A DNA stretch of 64,000 nucleotides from Alphaproteobacteria bacterium (GTDB lineage: Bacteria > Pseudomonadota > Alphaproteobacteria > Micavibrionales > Micavibrionaceae). Where the stretch lies: assembly GCA_016125135.1 (NCBI GenBank), contig WGMJ01000017.1, forward strand, positions 1 to 64,000, written 5' to 3'. A program made the position numbers and the translations under genes. Below are positions 55,603-63,985 of the stretch, one piece after another; position 1 is the first letter of the stretch; each line of letters begins with the position of its first letter. The notes under the pieces were generated by a model. The model saw nothing but the letters and a program-made list of their open reading frames with translations. It did not search any database and had not been told where the DNA came from.

Positions 55603-55980
55603 ATGGCCCAAACGACAGCAGATGCCCGCGGCATGAAGCGGATTTGCACAGGTTGCGGAGCGCGCTTCTACGATATGAACAAGCGTCCGATCAACTGCCC
55701 GAATTGCGATACAGAGTTTACAGGTGAAGTGAAAGCACGTGGCCGTCGCGGTCGCGCAGCAGCGAATGACGATTACGGCAACGACGAAGAAGCCGAAACT
55801 GAAACAGAAGTCGAAACAGAAGAAGCCGAAGCCGAGAATGAAGATGTTGTGAGCATCGAAGATATCGAAGATGGTGACGACGAGGATATGGACGGCGATG
55901 ATATTGAAACGCTCGATGACATGGATGACGAGGATGACCTCGATGACGAGCTGGATGTCGAAACCGAAAAAGAAGAATAA
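55603..55980 (+). CDS. FYDLN-type acidic zinc-ribbon protein
   Basis: 125 residues. The N-terminal zinc ribbon (C..C near 16-19 and CPNC near 33-36) surrounds the signature RFYDMNKRPINCP; most homologues read FYDLN. After a basic linker the whole C-terminal half is Asp/Glu-rich. This family is nearly confined to alphaproteobacteria and its function is unknown. AAGGAG precedes the ATG. A TTGACA at 55543 may be its -35, but the -10 is poor. Confidence 0.9.
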   Translation: MAQTTADARGMKRICTGCGARFYDMNKRPINCPNCDTEFTGEVKARGRRGRAAANDDYGNDEEAETETEVETEEAEAENEDVVSIEDIEDGDDEDMDGDDIETLDDMDDEDDLDDELDVETEKEE

Positions 55981-56013: not shown

Positions 56014-56916
56014 ATGGGCACTTCATTCATGAACCTTAAACAGATTATCGTGGCACTCCCACTTACTGCTTCACAAGACGTTATTGGCGGCTTGCAGTGT
56101 ATTGGCGAAGAATGCTGTACGAGTATTTCTGCCATGCGTGTGCCCATCGGCACTCCCAAACTCTGGCATGTGACATGGCATGCCCCCGTTGATATGCATA
56201 AGGAAATATGGGCCGAGATCAATTATTTCCTCGATCAGCATAAAATCGAAGGTGAACCCGTTATTCAGGATGTACCAGACATCAATTGGCTTCAGCATGC
56301 CTATCAGCAGTTACCGGCACTCTCTATTGGGCCATTTTATGTTTATGGCGCACATATTGAAACCCCGCCCCCTGCAAACGCGATCCCTATTCAAATGGAT
56401 GCAGTCACCGCTTTTGGTTCCGGTTACCACGGCACAACAAAAGGCTGCTTGCTTGCGCTCGCAACACTGAAGGGAGAAAATAAATCATTCCACAAAATCT
56501 GGGATGTTGGCACGGGCACGGGTATATTAGCGATTGCAGCCCATCATTTATTCAACGTGCCTGTGTGGGCAAGTGATAATGACCCCGAGGCGGTGCGTGT
56601 TGTTGAAGAGCACATACAAAAAAATAATTTGAGCACAAAAGAAATTATCCCGCTGGTCGCTGAAGGCACGCAGCATGATGTGTGGGAACAAAATAAAAAA
56701 TTTGATCTGGTGATTGCAAATATTCTGGCGGGTCCGCTTGTGCAGCTTGCCCCTGATTTTGCGGACGGTGTTGAAAAGGGTGGGTTTCTGATTCTCTCCG
56801 GTCTTCTCAAAGAACAGTTCGATGATATCGAAAATGCCTACACACAAGCAGGTTTTAAGTTGTATAGGCAATTTCCAGAATACGATTGGCTCGCACTCAT
56901 CTATAAAAGAGTCTAG
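56014..56916 (+). CDS. prmA: Ribosomal protein L11 methyltransferase
   Basis: 300 residues. Methylates lysines and the N-terminus of L11. An N-terminal substrate-recognition domain is linked to the methyltransferase core by AFGSGYHGTTKGCLLAL (family motif FGTG.H.TT). Motif I is IWDVGTGTGILAIAA and the active-site block is VIANILAGPLVQLAP. The ATG at 56014 is chosen for its spacing from GGGGAGG; the ATG at 56029 is an alternative without a ribosome-binding site. Confidence 0.9.
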   Translation: MGTSFMNLKQIIVALPLTASQDVIGGLQCIGEECCTSISAMRVPIGTPKLWHVTWHAPVDMHKEIWAEINYFLDQHKIEGEPVIQDVPDINWLQHAYQQLPALSIGPFYVYGAHIETPPPANAIPIQMDAVTAFGSGYHGTTKGCLLALATLKGENKSFHKIWDVGTGTGILAIAAHHLFNVPVWASDNDPEAVRVVEEHIQKNNLSTKEIIPLVAEGTQHDVWEQNKKFDLVIANILAGPLVQLAPDFADGVEKGGFLILSGLLKEQFDDIENAYTQAGFKLYRQFPEYDWLALIYKRV

Positions 56917-57061: not shown

Positions 57062-60000
57062 ATGTCGCTACAAGGGGACTTGTCAGACATATTGTCCATG
57101 TTGGGCCTTAGCGCGCGGGAGCGTGATTGGCTTGCTTCCTCCGGATTCGTCCTCCAAACATCCATTTCAACCGATCTTGCTTCAGGTCTCGTGCACGGCT
57201 TACAGGCACGTGTCACAGAAGAAAATCCACAAAGCTACAAAGTCGAGATTCGCCATCTTTATCATCCCGATAACCAGACAAATCAACTGACGGATGTTTT
57301 GACGTTTCGCCTGAAATCCGAGAATGGCGGCCAGACATTTAAGGTTGCGGATGGGGATGTCGGTATCTGGCGCAAGGCAACAAAAAAGCCAACCGAGAAA
57401 GATGGTATCAAGCTTGTTGGCGCGTTCCACGATATCTGGCACGAGCTTCGCCGCAATCGCTGGACAAACCCTGTGCCGCTGCTCGAGAAGAACGGACTAC
57501 CTTCACAAAAAGCGCTTCCCGGCCTTTATGGGACGGGTGAAATCAAGATACACGACGCCAAAGTGCAGGATAAACCAGAAGATGTTTTCTTCGAGGCGGA
57601 GTTTCTCCCCGCTATACTTGGTATCGGTGCTGATGTTTATGCGGGTCGTCAGAAATTCCAGCATACGCTTTCGGCCCGCGGTGAACGCGGTGCATTCTAT
57701 GCCCTGAAGCTGAATGGTGAGATTGGTCGCACACCGGCAAACGTGAAGCTAAGCTGTACACTCACGCGTCGTGATGGTCAGCAAGAGACAACCGAAGAGA
57801 TTTATTCGCTTGAAACTGTTGGTGTGGGTGACAACGACAAACAGGCGCGCCTGAAATCACTCACCTTCCACGGTGAAAAGCGCGAGCACCGTAACCGCAA
57901 AGTTGCAGGCCGTTTCCTTGATGCAATCCGCGAACACCACACGCTTATTCGCCGGGGCGAGAACGCTGCTGATATTGATGATCTGTTCCGCATGGCGGAG
58001 GATGGCGAGGTAAAGCTACCAACCGATATCATGCTCAGATCCGACCTTTATCCGCACCTGCAGGAAAAGCTCGAGATCGGCCCGAAAGGTCGCGCCTTCC
58101 TGACAATCGAGGGCGGCAACCCGCACGATGAAATATATCTTTCAAACCACGATCACCAGATCGGGGCTAACCGCTATATTTTCGAATTTCACGACAAGCC
58201 TGCCAAAACAAAGCCCGCACGTGTACGCGCTGTCGGGGTTGATGCCGGCGTCCAGTTTCAGGACAAGGCTGACCTTGCGGCGGTCAATGTTGACGCTTAT
58301 TACAAGCGCCGTTTCGACCCCGATCATAAGCCGCATTTACCGCTTATGGCAGAGGTTATCACGCACGGCCACATGGACCATGTGGGCTTCTACGCCTATC
58401 TCGTAAAAGCGGGTTACGACTTACCGCTTCTTATCATGACCCCCATGACGCGCGAGCTTCTGCGGCGGAAAATGATGCAGCTCAAAATCGAGCCAAAAGT
58501 CGTGTGGAAGCAGCTGGATAATTGCCATGTGATTGATCTGTTCTTCAAATCGCAAGACGACGGGGACTTTGACCTGTCAACCAATACATATAATTATAAT
58601 GGTACTGAATTTACTCAAAGCTGGGAGCCAATAAAAGACAAGGCTGGCAAAACACATTATTACCCCGTCCTTGATTTCGGCGGGGACATGAAGTTGCATC
58701 TTGCAGCCGCACCGCACTCGCTTCCTGGGTTTATGGTGCACTTCGATACACCTGCCGATAGCTGGACACATACGGGTGATTGGAAGCCGGACGATACCCT
58801 GCGAAATATGCTGCCCGGTATGCCACCACTTGATCCATGGCTTGAGAAACATCAACCAACGCTTCTAACGACAGATTCAACCGGTTCGCTAAAAGAAGAC
58901 GATGTTCCAACTGAAGCGCAGATTAAAGAGGGTTTCCTCGGGATCTACAAGAAACATCCGAAGCAACGATTTCTGTTCGCTTTGCTTGGCTCAAACCTTG
59001 CCCGTTTAATGACAATCATCGAAGCGACGACAGAGGCCGGTAAAGATGCATTGTTGATGGACGGTAAGGCGGTGAATGATCTTATAAAAGATCTTGATGC
59101 CACCTATATGCTGATAACGGGTGATGAAAAGAATTTCAGGCAGCATATATTCGATGAATACGGGCTGCAGATTTATTTACAGACACAAAGCAATTATAAA
59201 AAAATTCTCGAGGGCGAGCCGGTGAAGGTTCGTTACCAGAAAACCGATGAGGAAGAAGAAATCGCAGGCCTGCAACCGGAACCCAAGCAACGCCGTCGTA
59301 AAACAAAAGCCAGCCGGGATTTTCTCGAAGATGATTCCATCGATGAGGGCGACTTTGATGATGAAGAGAAGGGCGTTGTACTTTCCTACAGCATGGCCGT
59401 GACGGGCACGCAAGACGAGCCCTATTCCAGTCTTAACCAGGCCGCCCGTGATCTGAATCGCCGCTACCGTTTGACAAAGGGCGATGTGCTTGTGAATGCG
59501 CAAGGGGTTATTCCCACGGGTGAAAATAAAGAACGCCGTAAAAGTGTTATTGCCGCCATGGCGGAAATCACAGGAGCAACACTTTACTTCCCCGAGGCCA
59601 TCGAAAAAGAAAGCAACATTATTGTTGCCGGTTCGGGGCATACAACCAAACCAGGCCAGCGTGACCTTATCAAGAAGTTGGGCCTGCCTGTTGTTATTCC
59701 TGTACATGGCGGGCCTGACCAACTCAAGGCGCATGTGGCAACAGCGCAAGAAGTTGGCGCCAAGGCATATCGCGCCACAAATAGCTCGAAATTCGAACTT
59801 GTAGATGGCGATGTGCGTGAGGTGCAAAGTATCCCTAACCAGATGCTTTATATTACCACTGCTGCGCATGATACATTCGGCAAAATGTTCCTTGCGCCTG
59901 TTTTCAGTACGCAGGCAACGCCTATGAAGGGGCCATTGCTTTCAAAAGCGGGTGCACTTGTTGAAATCTTTGAACGTGCCGTTACACGCGGCCGCAAGAT

Positions 60001-61864
60001 CCAGCCGGAGCTTATTTCACGCCAACGCGGCTTTATCGCGAAGAAAGTTAAATTCGGGATCGAGAAGTATCGTTATGGTGCGCTTAAAGACAAGGATATT
60101 ACTGTTGTTGCCGGATGCGATACCGAGACAACGGGTATTCGTAACCTGCACCAGATGACACAATTTGCGCTTGTGCCGCAGCAGGTCAAAGATAGAGCTT
60201 TTCTTGACCCAAGCGTATTTTACGAACGTATGCAGGATGGTGTTGTTGCAAGCCCGGGTGCCGAGTTTGTAACCCAGCGCAAACTGACTGACCATCAACG
60301 CGGTGATAACGTATTCGTATTTGCTAATAGAATGTTCAAGGCAATTCGTGATCTACGCAAAACAGCCAGCGAGCTTTATACAGCAGACCATAAAAAGCCG
60401 GATAAGGCTTTCGGCGAAGATGATGTCGCCCGCAAGGAACATGGTAAGCAGATCACGCGTGAAGCGCGCTATGCCAAGGCCATGCTGGTCTTCCATAATG
60501 GCCGTTTTGATGACCGTTTTATCCGCGCTGAACTGGGACGCGGCGGTGTTATTGATAACAAGCCGCACAGCGGTAAGGGCGTGTTCTGGGTGGATACACG
60601 TGTGATCGCCCGCGCACTCCATGCCTATTCACCGGGTATTTTGAAGGTAGGTAAGAACAAGGAAACGGGCCTTGTTGATTTCAGCTTGAAGGCTCTCTGC
60701 CAGAAAAACGGCATTGAATATGATGAAAGCAAGGCTCACGCCAACGCGGATTATGACGCCGAGCGTGCGCTGGCACTTTTCTGGTTGATGCAAGACAAGG
60801 CACCGAAGATTGTTGACCAAATGATTTTAAATGCGGACTACCAGTCCAACCACTTGCTAAATGATATTTGGGGTATTGATTGTGGTTACGGGCCGCACAC
60901 ACCATACCCTGTCTTCTCGTATATGAGTGCGCGGGCCGACAAGCCCGATCCGAAGATGGGGTGCTTTATCGGTAGCTTCTTGAATAGAAGATACGCAATT
61001 GTTTTTAACCTTGCATATGACCCGGCAAAATATTTTAATTTGCCTGAAGCAAAAATAAAAGAAATGCTCGATGACCCGAATTGTGATGTTTTCGAGAAAA
61101 TTGATTTGCAAATGCAGCCAATTGTCATGCCTCCACGCGTGGGTATCAAGGTCGGCGCGCATAATGGCCTGCCTATCGAAACGCTCGATAAACGCGCGAG
61201 CGCCATGAAAATGCACTTACAAACGGCCCGCCACGACCATAAACGTACACTGGCCGAGAAAATCGACAACGTGCTGGCAGCAGATATGTTTATGCGTGAA
61301 GAAGTTGACTGGCAGGAAAGTGGCCCGTCACCTGTGCGGGCGATTGATGCTTGGGAAAAACAAGTGCTGTCGCCCGATATGGGCTTCATTGAGCTGAAGC
61401 GTATGAAGACAGGTCTCGCCGATCAGGTGAAGCAAGAGCTCTTCAAAAAAGTAAACGAATATCTGAACAAGGTGAAAAAATACGCCGAAGATTTTGGCGA
61501 GGATGCCGAACAGACAGAAGAGAACAAGGCGAACATCGCATCACATTTTGATGCTATCATGCGCTACCAGCATGACTACACGCAAGCGATCCAGCTTTAT
61601 ATTTGCACAATCCAATATGATATTGATCGTCGCAAGCTTTCAGCCGATCAGGTGAAGCAGGTTGAAACCTACCGTGCGATTCGAGCCTACATCACGAATC
61701 GGGAAGCACAGGAAGAATTCCCCAAAACGGGTGATTCGGCCTTCAAGAAGGAATACAAACCTTACTATGAGGCAGCGAACCAGAATCATGGTGAAGTCAC
61801 CGACAAGATGCGCGCTGTTGGCATATTCTCCCACAACCGTATATTACGTCCACATGTTGGATAG
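57062..61864 (+). CDS. Giant protein fusing an RNase J-like beta-CASP nuclease and an exonuclease I-like DEDDh domain
   Basis: 1600 residues without signal peptide. About 1-375 is a beta-rich region I do not recognise. About 380-960 is a metallo-beta-lactamase / beta-CASP nuclease with the RNase J motif set: H435-G-H437-M-D439-H440, H552, D573 in HTGDWK, H860 in GSGHTT and H882 in PVHGG. An acidic/basic insert lies near 726-770. About 1010-1480 is a DEDDh exonuclease like SbcB: D1020-T-E1022, HNGRFD with D1150, and H1226-ANAD. The final His-Asp spacing is one residue shorter than usual. A helical tail (1480-1600) ends the protein. The gene has a single open frame, so the fusion is real. A role in degrading or processing nucleic acid from both ends is inferred. 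Confidence 0.82.
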   Translation: MSLQGDLSDILSMLGLSARERDWLASSGFVLQTSISTDLASGLVHGLQARVTEENPQSYKVEIRHLYHPDNQTNQLTDVLTFRLKSENGGQTFKVADGDVGIWRKATKKPTEKDGIKLVGAFHDIWHELRRNRWTNPVPLLEKNGLPSQKALPGLYGTGEIKIHDAKVQDKPEDVFFEAEFLPAILGIGADVYAGRQKFQHTLSARGERGAFYALKLNGEIGRTPANVKLSCTLTRRDGQQETTEEIYSLETVGVGDNDKQARLKSLTFHGEKREHRNRKVAGRFLDAIREHHTLIRRGENAADIDDLFRMAEDGEVKLPTDIMLRSDLYPHLQEKLEIGPKGRAFLTIEGGNPHDEIYLSNHDHQIGANRYIFEFHDKPAKTKPARVRAVGVDAGVQFQDKADLAAVNVDAYYKRRFDPDHKPHLPLMAEVITHGHMDHVGFYAYLVKAGYDLPLLIMTPMTRELLRRKMMQLKIEPKVVWKQLDNCHVIDLFFKSQDDGDFDLSTNTYNYNGTEFTQSWEPIKDKAGKTHYYPVLDFGGDMKLHLAAAPHSLPGFMVHFDTPADSWTHTGDWKPDDTLRNMLPGMPPLDPWLEKHQPTLLTTDSTGSLKEDDVPTEAQIKEGFLGIYKKHPKQRFLFALLGSNLARLMTIIEATTEAGKDALLMDGKAVNDLIKDLDATYMLITGDEKNFRQHIFDEYGLQIYLQTQSNYKKILEGEPVKVRYQKTDEEEEIAGLQPEPKQRRRKTKASRDFLEDDSIDEGDFDDEEKGVVLSYSMAVTGTQDEPYSSLNQAARDLNRRYRLTKGDVLVNAQGVIPTGENKERRKSVIAAMAEITGATLYFPEAIEKESNIIVAGSGHTTKPGQRDLIKKLGLPVVIPVHGGPDQLKAHVATAQEVGAKAYRATNSSKFELVDGDVREVQSIPNQMLYITTAAHDTFGKMFLAPVFSTQATPMKGPLLSKAGALVEIFERAVTRGRKIQPELISRQRGFIAKKVKFGIEKYRYGALKDKDITVVAGCDTETTGIRNLHQMTQFALVPQQVKDRAFLDPSVFYERMQDGVVASPGAEFVTQRKLTDHQRGDNVFVFANRMFKAIRDLRKTASELYTADHKKPDKAFGEDDVARKEHGKQITREARYAKAMLVFHNGRFDDRFIRAELGRGGVIDNKPHSGKGVFWVDTRVIARALHAYSPGILKVGKNKETGLVDFSLKALCQKNGIEYDESKAHANADYDAERALALFWLMQDKAPKIVDQMILNADYQSNHLLNDIWGIDCGYGPHTPYPVFSYMSARADKPDPKMGCFIGSFLNRRYAIVFNLAYDPAKYFNLPEAKIKEMLDDPNCDVFEKIDLQMQPIVMPPRVGIKVGAHNGLPIETLDKRASAMKMHLQTARHDHKRTLAEKIDNVLAADMFMREEVDWQESGPSPVRAIDAWEKQVLSPDMGFIELKRMKTGLADQVKQELFKKVNEYLNKVKKYAEDFGEDAEQTEENKANIASHFDAIMRYQHDYTQAIQLYICTIQYDIDRRKLSADQVKQVETYRAIRAYITNREAQEEFPKTGDSAFKKEYKPYYEAANQNHGEVTDKMRAVGIFSHNRILRPHVG

Positions 61865-61978
61865 TTCCGGCACTTGTTATTCTGTCCCGATCTTTTTGTT
61901 TTTGTTCGTCTTTTTGAAACCATCCCCATAGCACAAAAAAAACTTCCAAAAAGGACTCTTGCACGGGTTGAAAACAGG

Positions 61979-62032: not shown

Positions 62033-62081
62033 ACACAATATATAGTAGGTTAATATTAAGTTACACCGCTACAGATTGTGT
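62033..62081 (+). promoter_or_regulatory. Two NrdR-box-like sites upstream of nrdA
   Basis: The NrdR consensus is ACACwATATATwGTGT. The first site, 62033-62048, matches 14 of 16 positions, and the second, 62066-62081, matches 12 of 16. Their starts are 33 bp apart, close to three helical turns, which is the arrangement NrdR normally binds. They lie 78-126 bp before the nrdA start codon. Confidence 0.8.
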
Positions 62082-62158
62082 CTCATCTACAACTCTGTAA
62101 TCACCGTAAAAAACTTATAACTGCTTGTTTTGGGCACCCGCCCGGAAGGAATATGGCC

Positions 62159-63985
62159 ATGTTTGACGTCGCGCAAATGGAACGGGGCAACCGTGTAAAA
62201 ATTGACCGCAGCCGCGACGCTTATTTAAGCGAATTCGGTGTGGCCACTTTATACGACCGTTACCTGCTGCCCGAAGAAGGCCCGCAAGATTTATTTGCAC
62301 GTGTTGCCATGTATTACGGCGATGATAGCGACCACGCACAGCGCCTCTATGACTATATCTCCAAGCTCTGGTTTATGCCGGCAACGCCTGTTCTTTCAAA
62401 CGGCGGTACATCACGCGGGCTTCCAATCTCCTGCTTCCTGAACGAATGCAATGACTCCCTCGAAGATATTGTAAACCTCTGGAACGAAAACGTATGGCTG
62501 GCCTCGCTTGGCGGCGGTATTGGCTCTTACTGGGGCAATATTCGTTCTATCGGTGAGAAAGTCGGCCGTAACGGTAAAACATCGGGTATCGTGCCGTTCA
62601 TCCGCGTGATGGATTCGCTAACTCTCGCTATTTCGCAAGGCTCCTTGCGTCGTGGCTCTGCTGCAATCTATCTACCTGTCTGGCATCCCGAGATCGAAGA
62701 GTTTGTCGAGATCCGCCGCCCGACCGGTGGTGACCCGAACCGTAAAGCACTCAACCTGCACCACGGCGTTTTGATCCCAAACGCATTCATGCAGGCTGTT
62801 GCACAAAATGACGAATGGGCGCTTCGCTCACCGAAAGACAATTCAATTGTTGACCGCGTAAACGCACGTGATCTCTGGATCCGTATTCTGACTGCGCGTA
62901 TTGAAACGGGCGAGCCGTATATCGTGTTCATCGACCACGTGAATGATGCTATTCCGGCACACCACAAAATGGCGGGTTTGAACGTGAAAATGTCAAACCT
63001 CTGCTCCGAGATCACATTGCCAACAGGGCGTGACCATTTGGGTAATGACCGCACAGCTGTTTGCTGTCTCTCGTCGCTCAACCTCGAAACTTTTGACCAA
63101 TGGCAAGACCACCCGACCTTTATTGAAGACTGCATGCGCTTCCTCGATAACGTGCTGACAGACTTCATTAATAAAGCGCCGGATACAATGAAGCGCGCGA
63201 AATACGCAGCCATGCGCGAGCGCTCTGTGGGCCTCGGCGTGATGGGCTATCACTCATTCCTGCAATCAAAAATGATCCCGATGGAATCGGTCATGGCAAA
63301 AGTCTGGAACCGCCGTATGTTCCAACATGTCAAACGTCAGGTTGATGATGCGTCTAAAAAACTCGCACAAGAGCGTGGCCCATGCCCTGATGCTGCCGAA
63401 TACGGTGCGATGGAGCGTTTCTCGAACAAAATGGCAATTGCACCAACAGCGTCTATTTCTATTATCTGCGGTGGCGCGTCACCAGGGATTGAGCCAAACG
63501 CAGCAAATGCTTACAACCACAAAACACTTTCTGGCTCTTTTGCTGTTAAAAATAGCTACCTCGAGAAATTACTCGAAGAAAAAGGTAAAAACACAGAAGA
63601 AGTCTGGTCACATATCTTTACTGACGAAGGTTCAGTCCAGGGGCTTGATTTCCTCTCGCAGGAAGAGAAAGACGTTTTCAAAACTGCATTCGAGATCGAC
63701 CAACGCTGGCTCATCGAGCACGCAGCAGATAGAACGCCTTTTGTTTGTCAGGCTCAGTCGTTGAACGTGTTCCTGCCAGCCAATGTTCACAAAAAAGACC
63801 TGCACCAGATCCACTGGGAAGCATGGGAGAAGGGCGTAAAATCACTTTATTACTGCCGTTCGAAATCAATCCAGCGTGCAGAGTCAAACGCGAGCTGGAC
63901 GCGTTCAAAAGAAGGTGAAAAACCAACCCAACAACTTGAATTGGGCGAAGACAAAAAATACGAAGAATGCCTCGCTTGCCAGTAA
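62159..63985 (+). CDS. nrdA: Ribonucleoside-diphosphate reductase alpha subunit, without ATP-cone
   Basis: Class I large subunit that reduces ribonucleotides to deoxyribonucleotides. Start at 62159 (MFDVAQMERG), 8 nt after AAGGA; the ATG at 62153 is too close to it. 608 residues. Active-site residues are present: SNLCSEI holds the N-x-C-x-E trio, CCLSSLN and PISCFLNEC give the reducing cysteines, and the C-terminal ECLACQ is the thioredoxin-linked CxxC tail. The N-terminal ATP-cone of E. coli NrdA (761 residues) is absent, so dATP inhibition must be missing or reside in the small subunit. Two NrdR-like boxes lie upstream. The gene is complete; nrdB is not in the window. Confidence 0.94.
   Translation: MFDVAQMERGNRVKIDRSRDAYLSEFGVATLYDRYLLPEEGPQDLFARVAMYYGDDSDHAQRLYDYISKLWFMPATPVLSNGGTSRGLPISCFLNECNDSLEDIVNLWNENVWLASLGGGIGSYWGNIRSIGEKVGRNGKTSGIVPFIRVMDSLTLAISQGSLRRGSAAIYLPVWHPEIEEFVEIRRPTGGDPNRKALNLHHGVLIPNAFMQAVAQNDEWALRSPKDNSIVDRVNARDLWIRILTARIETGEPYIVFIDHVNDAIPAHHKMAGLNVKMSNLCSEITLPTGRDHLGNDRTAVCCLSSLNLETFDQWQDHPTFIEDCMRFLDNVLTDFINKAPDTMKRAKYAAMRERSVGLGVMGYHSFLQSKMIPMESVMAKVWNRRMFQHVKRQVDDASKKLAQERGPCPDAAEYGAMERFSNKMAIAPTASISIICGGASPGIEPNAANAYNHKTLSGSFAVKNSYLEKLLEEKGKNTEEVWSHIFTDEGSVQGLDFLSQEEKDVFKTAFEIDQRWLIEHAADRTPFVCQAQSLNVFLPANVHKKDLHQIHWEAWEKGVKSLYYCRSKSIQRAESNASWTRSKEGEKPTQQLELGEDKKYEECLACQ

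Follow-up and report, generated by a model that had tools for sequence, protein, structure and literature searches.

In the window, a 64,000-nucleotide stretch of DNA from a bacterium of the Micavibrionaceae (contig WGMJ01000017.1), a single reading frame encodes a 1600-residue protein in which an N-terminal domain (aa 1-340), an RNase J-type nuclease (aa 341-933), and an exonuclease I (ExoI; aa 1013-1578) follow one another. The folds are known and the architecture is new; to our knowledge, this is the first polypeptide uniting RNase J with a complete exonuclease I. An earlier note, made from the sequence alone, had proposed that an RNase J-like and an exonuclease I-like nuclease are joined in one chain, and this proposal was supported by profile searches, profile-profile comparison, and predicted structures. 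The same note knew of no named family with this architecture; none was found here either, and a literature search of limited coverage yielded no such fusion. Of the 142 genomes surveyed from the order Micavibrionales, 20 carry the fusion, as an unbroken frame in 19 and cut by a contig end in one. Because the same architecture recurs in 20 genomes, chance is excluded, and joining of two genes by an assembly error, which the earlier note had named as a possible refutation, is ruled out; a true two-gene sister form also exists. The features discussed are collected in the table below.

Features of the fusion gene and its neighbours in the window (positions of the whole stretch)
Feature	Position	Strand	Basis
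TIGR02300 family gene, syntenic neighbour	55603..55980	+	family profile and locus comparison
prmA-like gene, directly upstream, syntenic neighbour	56014..56916	+	family profiles and locus comparison
Fusion gene, 1600 aa, single frame	57062..61864	+	ORF listing and genome survey
N-terminal domain, aa 1-340, function not assigned	57062..58081	+	alignment and model; in all fusions and in gene B of the split form
Duplication copy 1, aa 14-160, five strands then a helix	57101..57541	+	hhalign and model
Duplication copy 2, aa 190-335	57629..58066	+	hhalign and model
MBL/beta-CASP core of RNase J type, lacking the C-terminal domain of RNase J, aa 341-933	58082..59860	+	model and profile
HGHMDH metal-binding motif, aa 435-440	58364..58381	+	alignments of fusions and split pairs
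Acidic/basic low-confidence insertion, aa 709-757	59186..59332	+	alignment and model; not in the homologues aligned
Complete exonuclease I fold (DEDDh, SH3-like, and helical domains), aa 1013-1578	60098..61795	+	model and hhalign
DxE of the DEDDh site, aa 1020-1022	60119..60127	+	unchanged across 19 fusions and 11 split pairs
H-x5-D motif of the DEDDh site, aa 1226-1232	60737..60757	+	alignments
Ribonucleotide reductase alpha subunit, downstream	62078..63985	+	family profile and locus comparison

Domains and active sites of the fusion protein

Upstream of the ATG of the fusion gene, the frame stays open for only 15 bases. A terminator-like match at 61855-61872 shares positions with the stop codon and did not enter the interpretation. 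Pfam and NCBIfam searches with the whole protein returned beta-CASP (aa 778-822), RMMBL (aa 858-903), and an RNase J subfamily (E 7e-23), followed in the C-terminal part by a weak DEDDh exonuclease match (RNase T, E 4.5e-5); its best PDB sequence matches were RNase J entries. Template-free AlphaFold2 modelling on 18 sequences, those of the window and of homologues, gave two models, of aa 1-955 (pLDDT 78) and of aa 905-1600 (pLDDT 76). The MBL and DEDDh folds, whose absence from such models would have spoken against the earlier note, were both present.

RNase J1 (3zq4) matched the first model with a Z of 32.1 and an rmsd of 2.4 A over 431 residues, the match to RNase J spanning aa 337-954, and the next beta-CASP families followed at a Z of about 23. 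Profile-profile comparison with stand-alone RNase J-like relatives gave an E of 1.5e-49 over aa 343-933. The C-terminal domain of RNase J is absent: the alignment stops at about residue 450-460 of chains of 529-555 residues, and ExoI comes next. RNase J proper (TIGR00649) is thus the nearest structural relative of the MBL part and resembles it in fold and metal ligands, whereas the fusion lacks the C-terminal domain, has gained a duplicated N-terminal domain and ExoI, and lies far under the family cut-offs (80.7 bits versus a cut-off of 400 for the curated family). The beta-CASP part of the window's copy alone also carries a highly charged insertion of about 49 residues, which is predicted to be disordered.

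The second model matched E. coli ExoI (1fxx) with a Z of 23.9, and 441 of the 459 residues were aligned with the domains in order; stand-alone ExoI aligned to the C-terminal part in hhalign with an E of 2.6e-35. The helical tail that had been left unassigned in the earlier note aligns with the helical domain of ExoI itself. The likeness to exonuclease I/SbcB (NF008746, PRK11779) therefore covers the entire three-domain fold and the DEDDh residues, but the fusion's copy sits behind an RNase J and scores far under the cut-off. None of the 142 genomes passed the cut-off of the curated exonuclease I model, which matched homologues with E values of 4e-8 to 9e-21 and did not match the window protein at E 1e-6.

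Both active sites are complete in the window. All the residues listed in the earlier note, namely the RNase J ligands H435/H437/D439/H440, H552, D573, H860, and H882, and D1020, E1022, D1150, and H1226 of the DEDDh site, are present, and D1232 completes the latter. The HxxxD that the note ascribed to the exonuclease was a misreading: D1230 is not conserved, and the conserved aspartate is D1232, giving H-x5-D in the window and two homologues; H-x4-D is found in the remaining homologues. Among 19 aligned fusions, of which the other 18 share 20-34% identity with the window's copy, the RNase J ligands and the five DEDDh residues were invariant with two exceptions, a glutamate in place of H435 in two fusions of genus g34 and an unreadable base at D439 in one homologue from a metagenome-assembled genome (MAG). 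At the two g34 loci (L082 and L083), THxHxDH has become TExHxDH, with glutamate in place of the first metal-ligand histidine. The two conserved sites are expected to act with opposite polarity, the RNase J part from 5' ends and the ExoI part from 3' ends.

The earlier note had left about 375 N-terminal residues without assignment. This holds for Pfam and for PDB sequences, in which an N-terminal profile search with aa 1-340 found no credible match, and a conserved internal duplication is now apparent in this region. Its two copies matched each other in hhalign (compared with aa 170 or 190 onwards) with an E of about 3e-10, as against 0.13-0.48 for 12 control segments taken from this protein, and in the AlphaFold2 model a sheet of five strands and then a helix occur twice over. 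This domain may hold the substrate or a partner.

Distribution and the split sister form

The 20 carriers, in a survey consisting mostly of MAGs, include the cultured predator Micavibrio aeruginosavorus ARL-13 (G077). The named records, which a scan of genome contigs matched with a six-member alignment (A2), belong to Micavibrio sp. or to unclassified alphaproteobacterial MAGs; the window protein alone gave no match in such a scan, and a nine-row alignment was too diverged. No fusion was detected at E 1e-60 among 385 drawn members of the class and 398 drawn members of the phylum, partial samples in which this limit would miss split forms. The occurrence is patchy, with the fusion in one of 10 species of genus g35, one of 11 in g28, and all five in g22. 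Families f1, f2, and f7 are intermixed in the gene tree, which suggests that transfer has also taken place; the window's copy forms a long branch. A common neighbourhood of thiolase, TIGR02300, and mostly prmA was seen in the window, G047, G020, G070, and genus g22. A link to the downstream nrdA was rejected, as this pairing is not repeated in other loci and is probably incidental. Phage or plasmid origin was likewise rejected: the matches were weak and partial, covering 8-16% of the query, and alignment A2 confirmed none in viral contigs.

The N-terminal profile search also uncovered a split form made of two adjacent genes, carried by a further 11 genomes of the Micavibrionales and by two alphaproteobacteria outside the order. 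Gene B (1013-1168 aa) comprises the N-terminal domain and the RNase J-like part, and gene C, which comes next (1088-1351 aa), comprises the ExoI-like part and about 600 further residues; with a single exception among the loci compared, the two genes overlap or lie at most 58 bases apart. The 600 or so residues past the ExoI-like part of gene C (for example, L149:6500-9766 and L150:11026-14664) have no credible family match. All catalytic residues were kept in the 11 pairs. Trees of the RNase J and ExoI halves, made by a quick method, are nearly the same, and one branch (support 99-100) parts the fusions from the split forms; these matching sequence trees are consistent with a single fusion event.

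A further gene, gene A, of about 750-840 aa, is located upstream in most split loci and downstream in one. It forms a single family that is conserved across the order and the two other alphaproteobacteria (for example, L149:751-3186, L152:5868-8240, and L155:4962-7217), with no match in the tests made against Pfam, NCBIfam, PADLOC, PHROG, and PDB (the last by profile search). The comparison thus brings to light an uncharacterised protein family as well as an unassigned duplicated domain. Gene A is absent from the fusion genomes save for short weak matches in two of them, where frames of about 345 aa weakly match its C-terminal part (G020:C42:5024-5353 and G070:C18:3916-4398).

In family f3, an RNase J-like gene, ExoI, and the nucleotidase described below are separate and scattered, and occur in 15, 17, and 11 of 18 genomes, respectively.

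Nucleotidase companions and a possible catabolic role

Genes for nucleotide catabolism accompany both forms. A PF06189 5'-nucleotidase gene lies directly downstream of the fusion in six genomes, where it starts between -4 and +33 bases relative to the fusion's stop, and is present in 16 of the 20 fusion genomes (six linked, ten unlinked); the four fusion genomes in which it was not found are 85-92% complete. Outside family f3, 18 genomes carry PF06189, 16 of them with the fusion and two (G023 and G083, the latter by its gene A piece) with the split form, and no genome without either form carries it. Counted by genera where the genes are unlinked, the association of fusion and PF06189 (5/2/1/36) gave p = 1.1e-4, a value in which ancestry is only partly corrected, as kinship was reduced solely by the counting of genera. 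At the split loci, the companions are two HAD genes that match the TIGR01993 pyrimidine 5'-nucleotidase best (E 4e-12 and 4e-13, under the cut-off), and two deoC genes above the curated cut-off. In a sample of 51 genomes, deoC was found in 11 of 28 carriers versus none of 19 non-carriers of families f1, f2, and f7. The window's own genome has an unlinked PF06189 5'-nucleotidase and no deoC. In genus g34, the PF06189 gene of two loci (L114 and L120) lies within a ribosomal protein cluster near secY and adk, as named by eye.

The earlier note had offered repair, RNA decay, and defence. We prefer none of these three, which remain as rivals; the neighbours point to a fourth option, nucleic-acid catabolism. 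Our main argument is that two unrelated 5'-nucleotidase folds and DeoC as companions speak for a catabolic or salvage role. We suggest, with slightly less than even confidence, that the fusion is a cytoplasmic enzyme that attacks nucleic acid at both ends and breaks it down to 5'-mononucleotides, which would feed salvage or catabolism. The cytoplasm is the expected site because a sequence check found no signal peptide, nor was a membrane segment found. The RNase J part would take nucleotides off 5' ends and may also cut internally, and the ExoI part would take them off 3' ends of single strands. ExoI releases 5'-dNMPs. RNase J is reported to release nucleoside monophosphates from 5'-monophosphorylated RNA (PMC4652760), so that both parts would be predicted to yield 5'-mononucleotides. 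Nucleosides would then be made by the 5'-nucleotidase, PF06189 with the fusion or the HAD pyrimidine-5'-nucleotidase-like protein in some split operons, and in some genomes deoC would pass deoxyribose into carbon metabolism. E. coli can use DNA as a nutrient (PMC9273947). The order being predatory, the likely substrate would be prey or scavenged nucleic acid, which is the weakest step of the proposal.

Several points count against the salvage reading. The window's own genome has its nucleotidase unlinked and lacks deoC, no PF06189 was found in four fusion genomes, and PF06189 proteins also match PDC-S08, a defence candidate in PADLOC. Six of the 16 PF06189 co-occurrences are simply linked genes. 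Moreover, the known nucleases with which predators digest prey DNA are reported to be secreted (PMC7925074), but the fusion protein has no export signal. The Bdellovibrio nucleases Bd0934 and Bd3507 (PMC7925074) are likewise predator nucleases tied to degradation of foreign DNA; they differ from the fusion in being secreted. A broader proposal, which we regard as possible but rather doubtful, is that predatory and related alphaproteobacteria possess an undescribed machine for digestion from both ends, built either as a fusion or, together with a new family of about 800 aa, as a split operon, and coupled to dephosphorylation of the products inside the cell, in which the duplicated domain and the ~800-aa protein would be new substrate-handling parts. 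Little is known about the use of prey nucleic acids by predators such as Micavibrio, and the fusion is a concrete candidate enzyme with partners; its presence in the cultured strain ARL-13 makes it directly testable.

Rival readings of the fusion

In anti-phage defence, the nuclease would destroy the invader's DNA or RNA, and nucleotides would be depleted by the linked 5'-nucleotidase. The patchy occurrence and the hint from the tree that the gene has moved between families would suit such a role, as would two PADLOC matches, those of the PF06189 proteins to PDC-S08 (E 6.8e-54) and of the ExoI part to RTas-SbcB, the SbcB-like nuclease found in DRT systems (E values as low as 5.7e-21). However, the RTas-SbcB match may reflect only the ExoI fold, and the minority of neighbours that were scanned included no reverse transcriptase; the likeness to PDC-S08, in the PF06189 nucleotidase, is to a candidate model only. 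No known defence gene was matched in these few neighbours, the gene stays beside the same housekeeping genes in the window, in G047, and in the Micavibrio genus, all five g22 members carry it, and deoC in split operons is ill-suited to defence, which we therefore consider unlikely. DNA repair or recombination, with ExoI and its fused 5'-3' partner replacing separate ExoI and RecJ-type enzymes, also seems improbable. In its favour, no stand-alone ExoI was found in any fusion genome, and in genus g34 the fusion lies in the genomic surroundings that house exoI in other families. There is also an archaeal precedent: the RecJ3/4-aRNase J complex of Haloferax volcanii, which acts in DNA-damage survival, joins RNase J to an exonuclease whose activity is mainly 3'-5' (PMC10470531), although its subunits are separate and its partner is RecJ (DHH family), whereas the partner here is fused and of ExoI type. 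Against this, most relatives in family f1 lack both the fusion and ExoI, which indicates that the function is dispensable, and repair does not predict 5'-nucleotidase and deoC companions.

A second RNA-decay nuclease working from both ends is, in our judgement, quite unlikely. RNase J is the closest relative of the MBL part, and the fusions retain the Ser-Gly-His and TGT/SQ motifs of RNase J. However, the window's genome encodes an ordinary RNase J elsewhere (556 aa), which makes a role in RNA decay less likely and led us to reject housekeeping RNase J activity as the primary role; ExoI-type enzymes are DNA exonucleases, and patchy occurrence is ill-suited to core RNA decay. As a separate observation, stand-alone RNase J-like genes of families f3 and f5 (L035, L038, and L040) lie among conserved genes that by eye look like secretion or conjugation genes.
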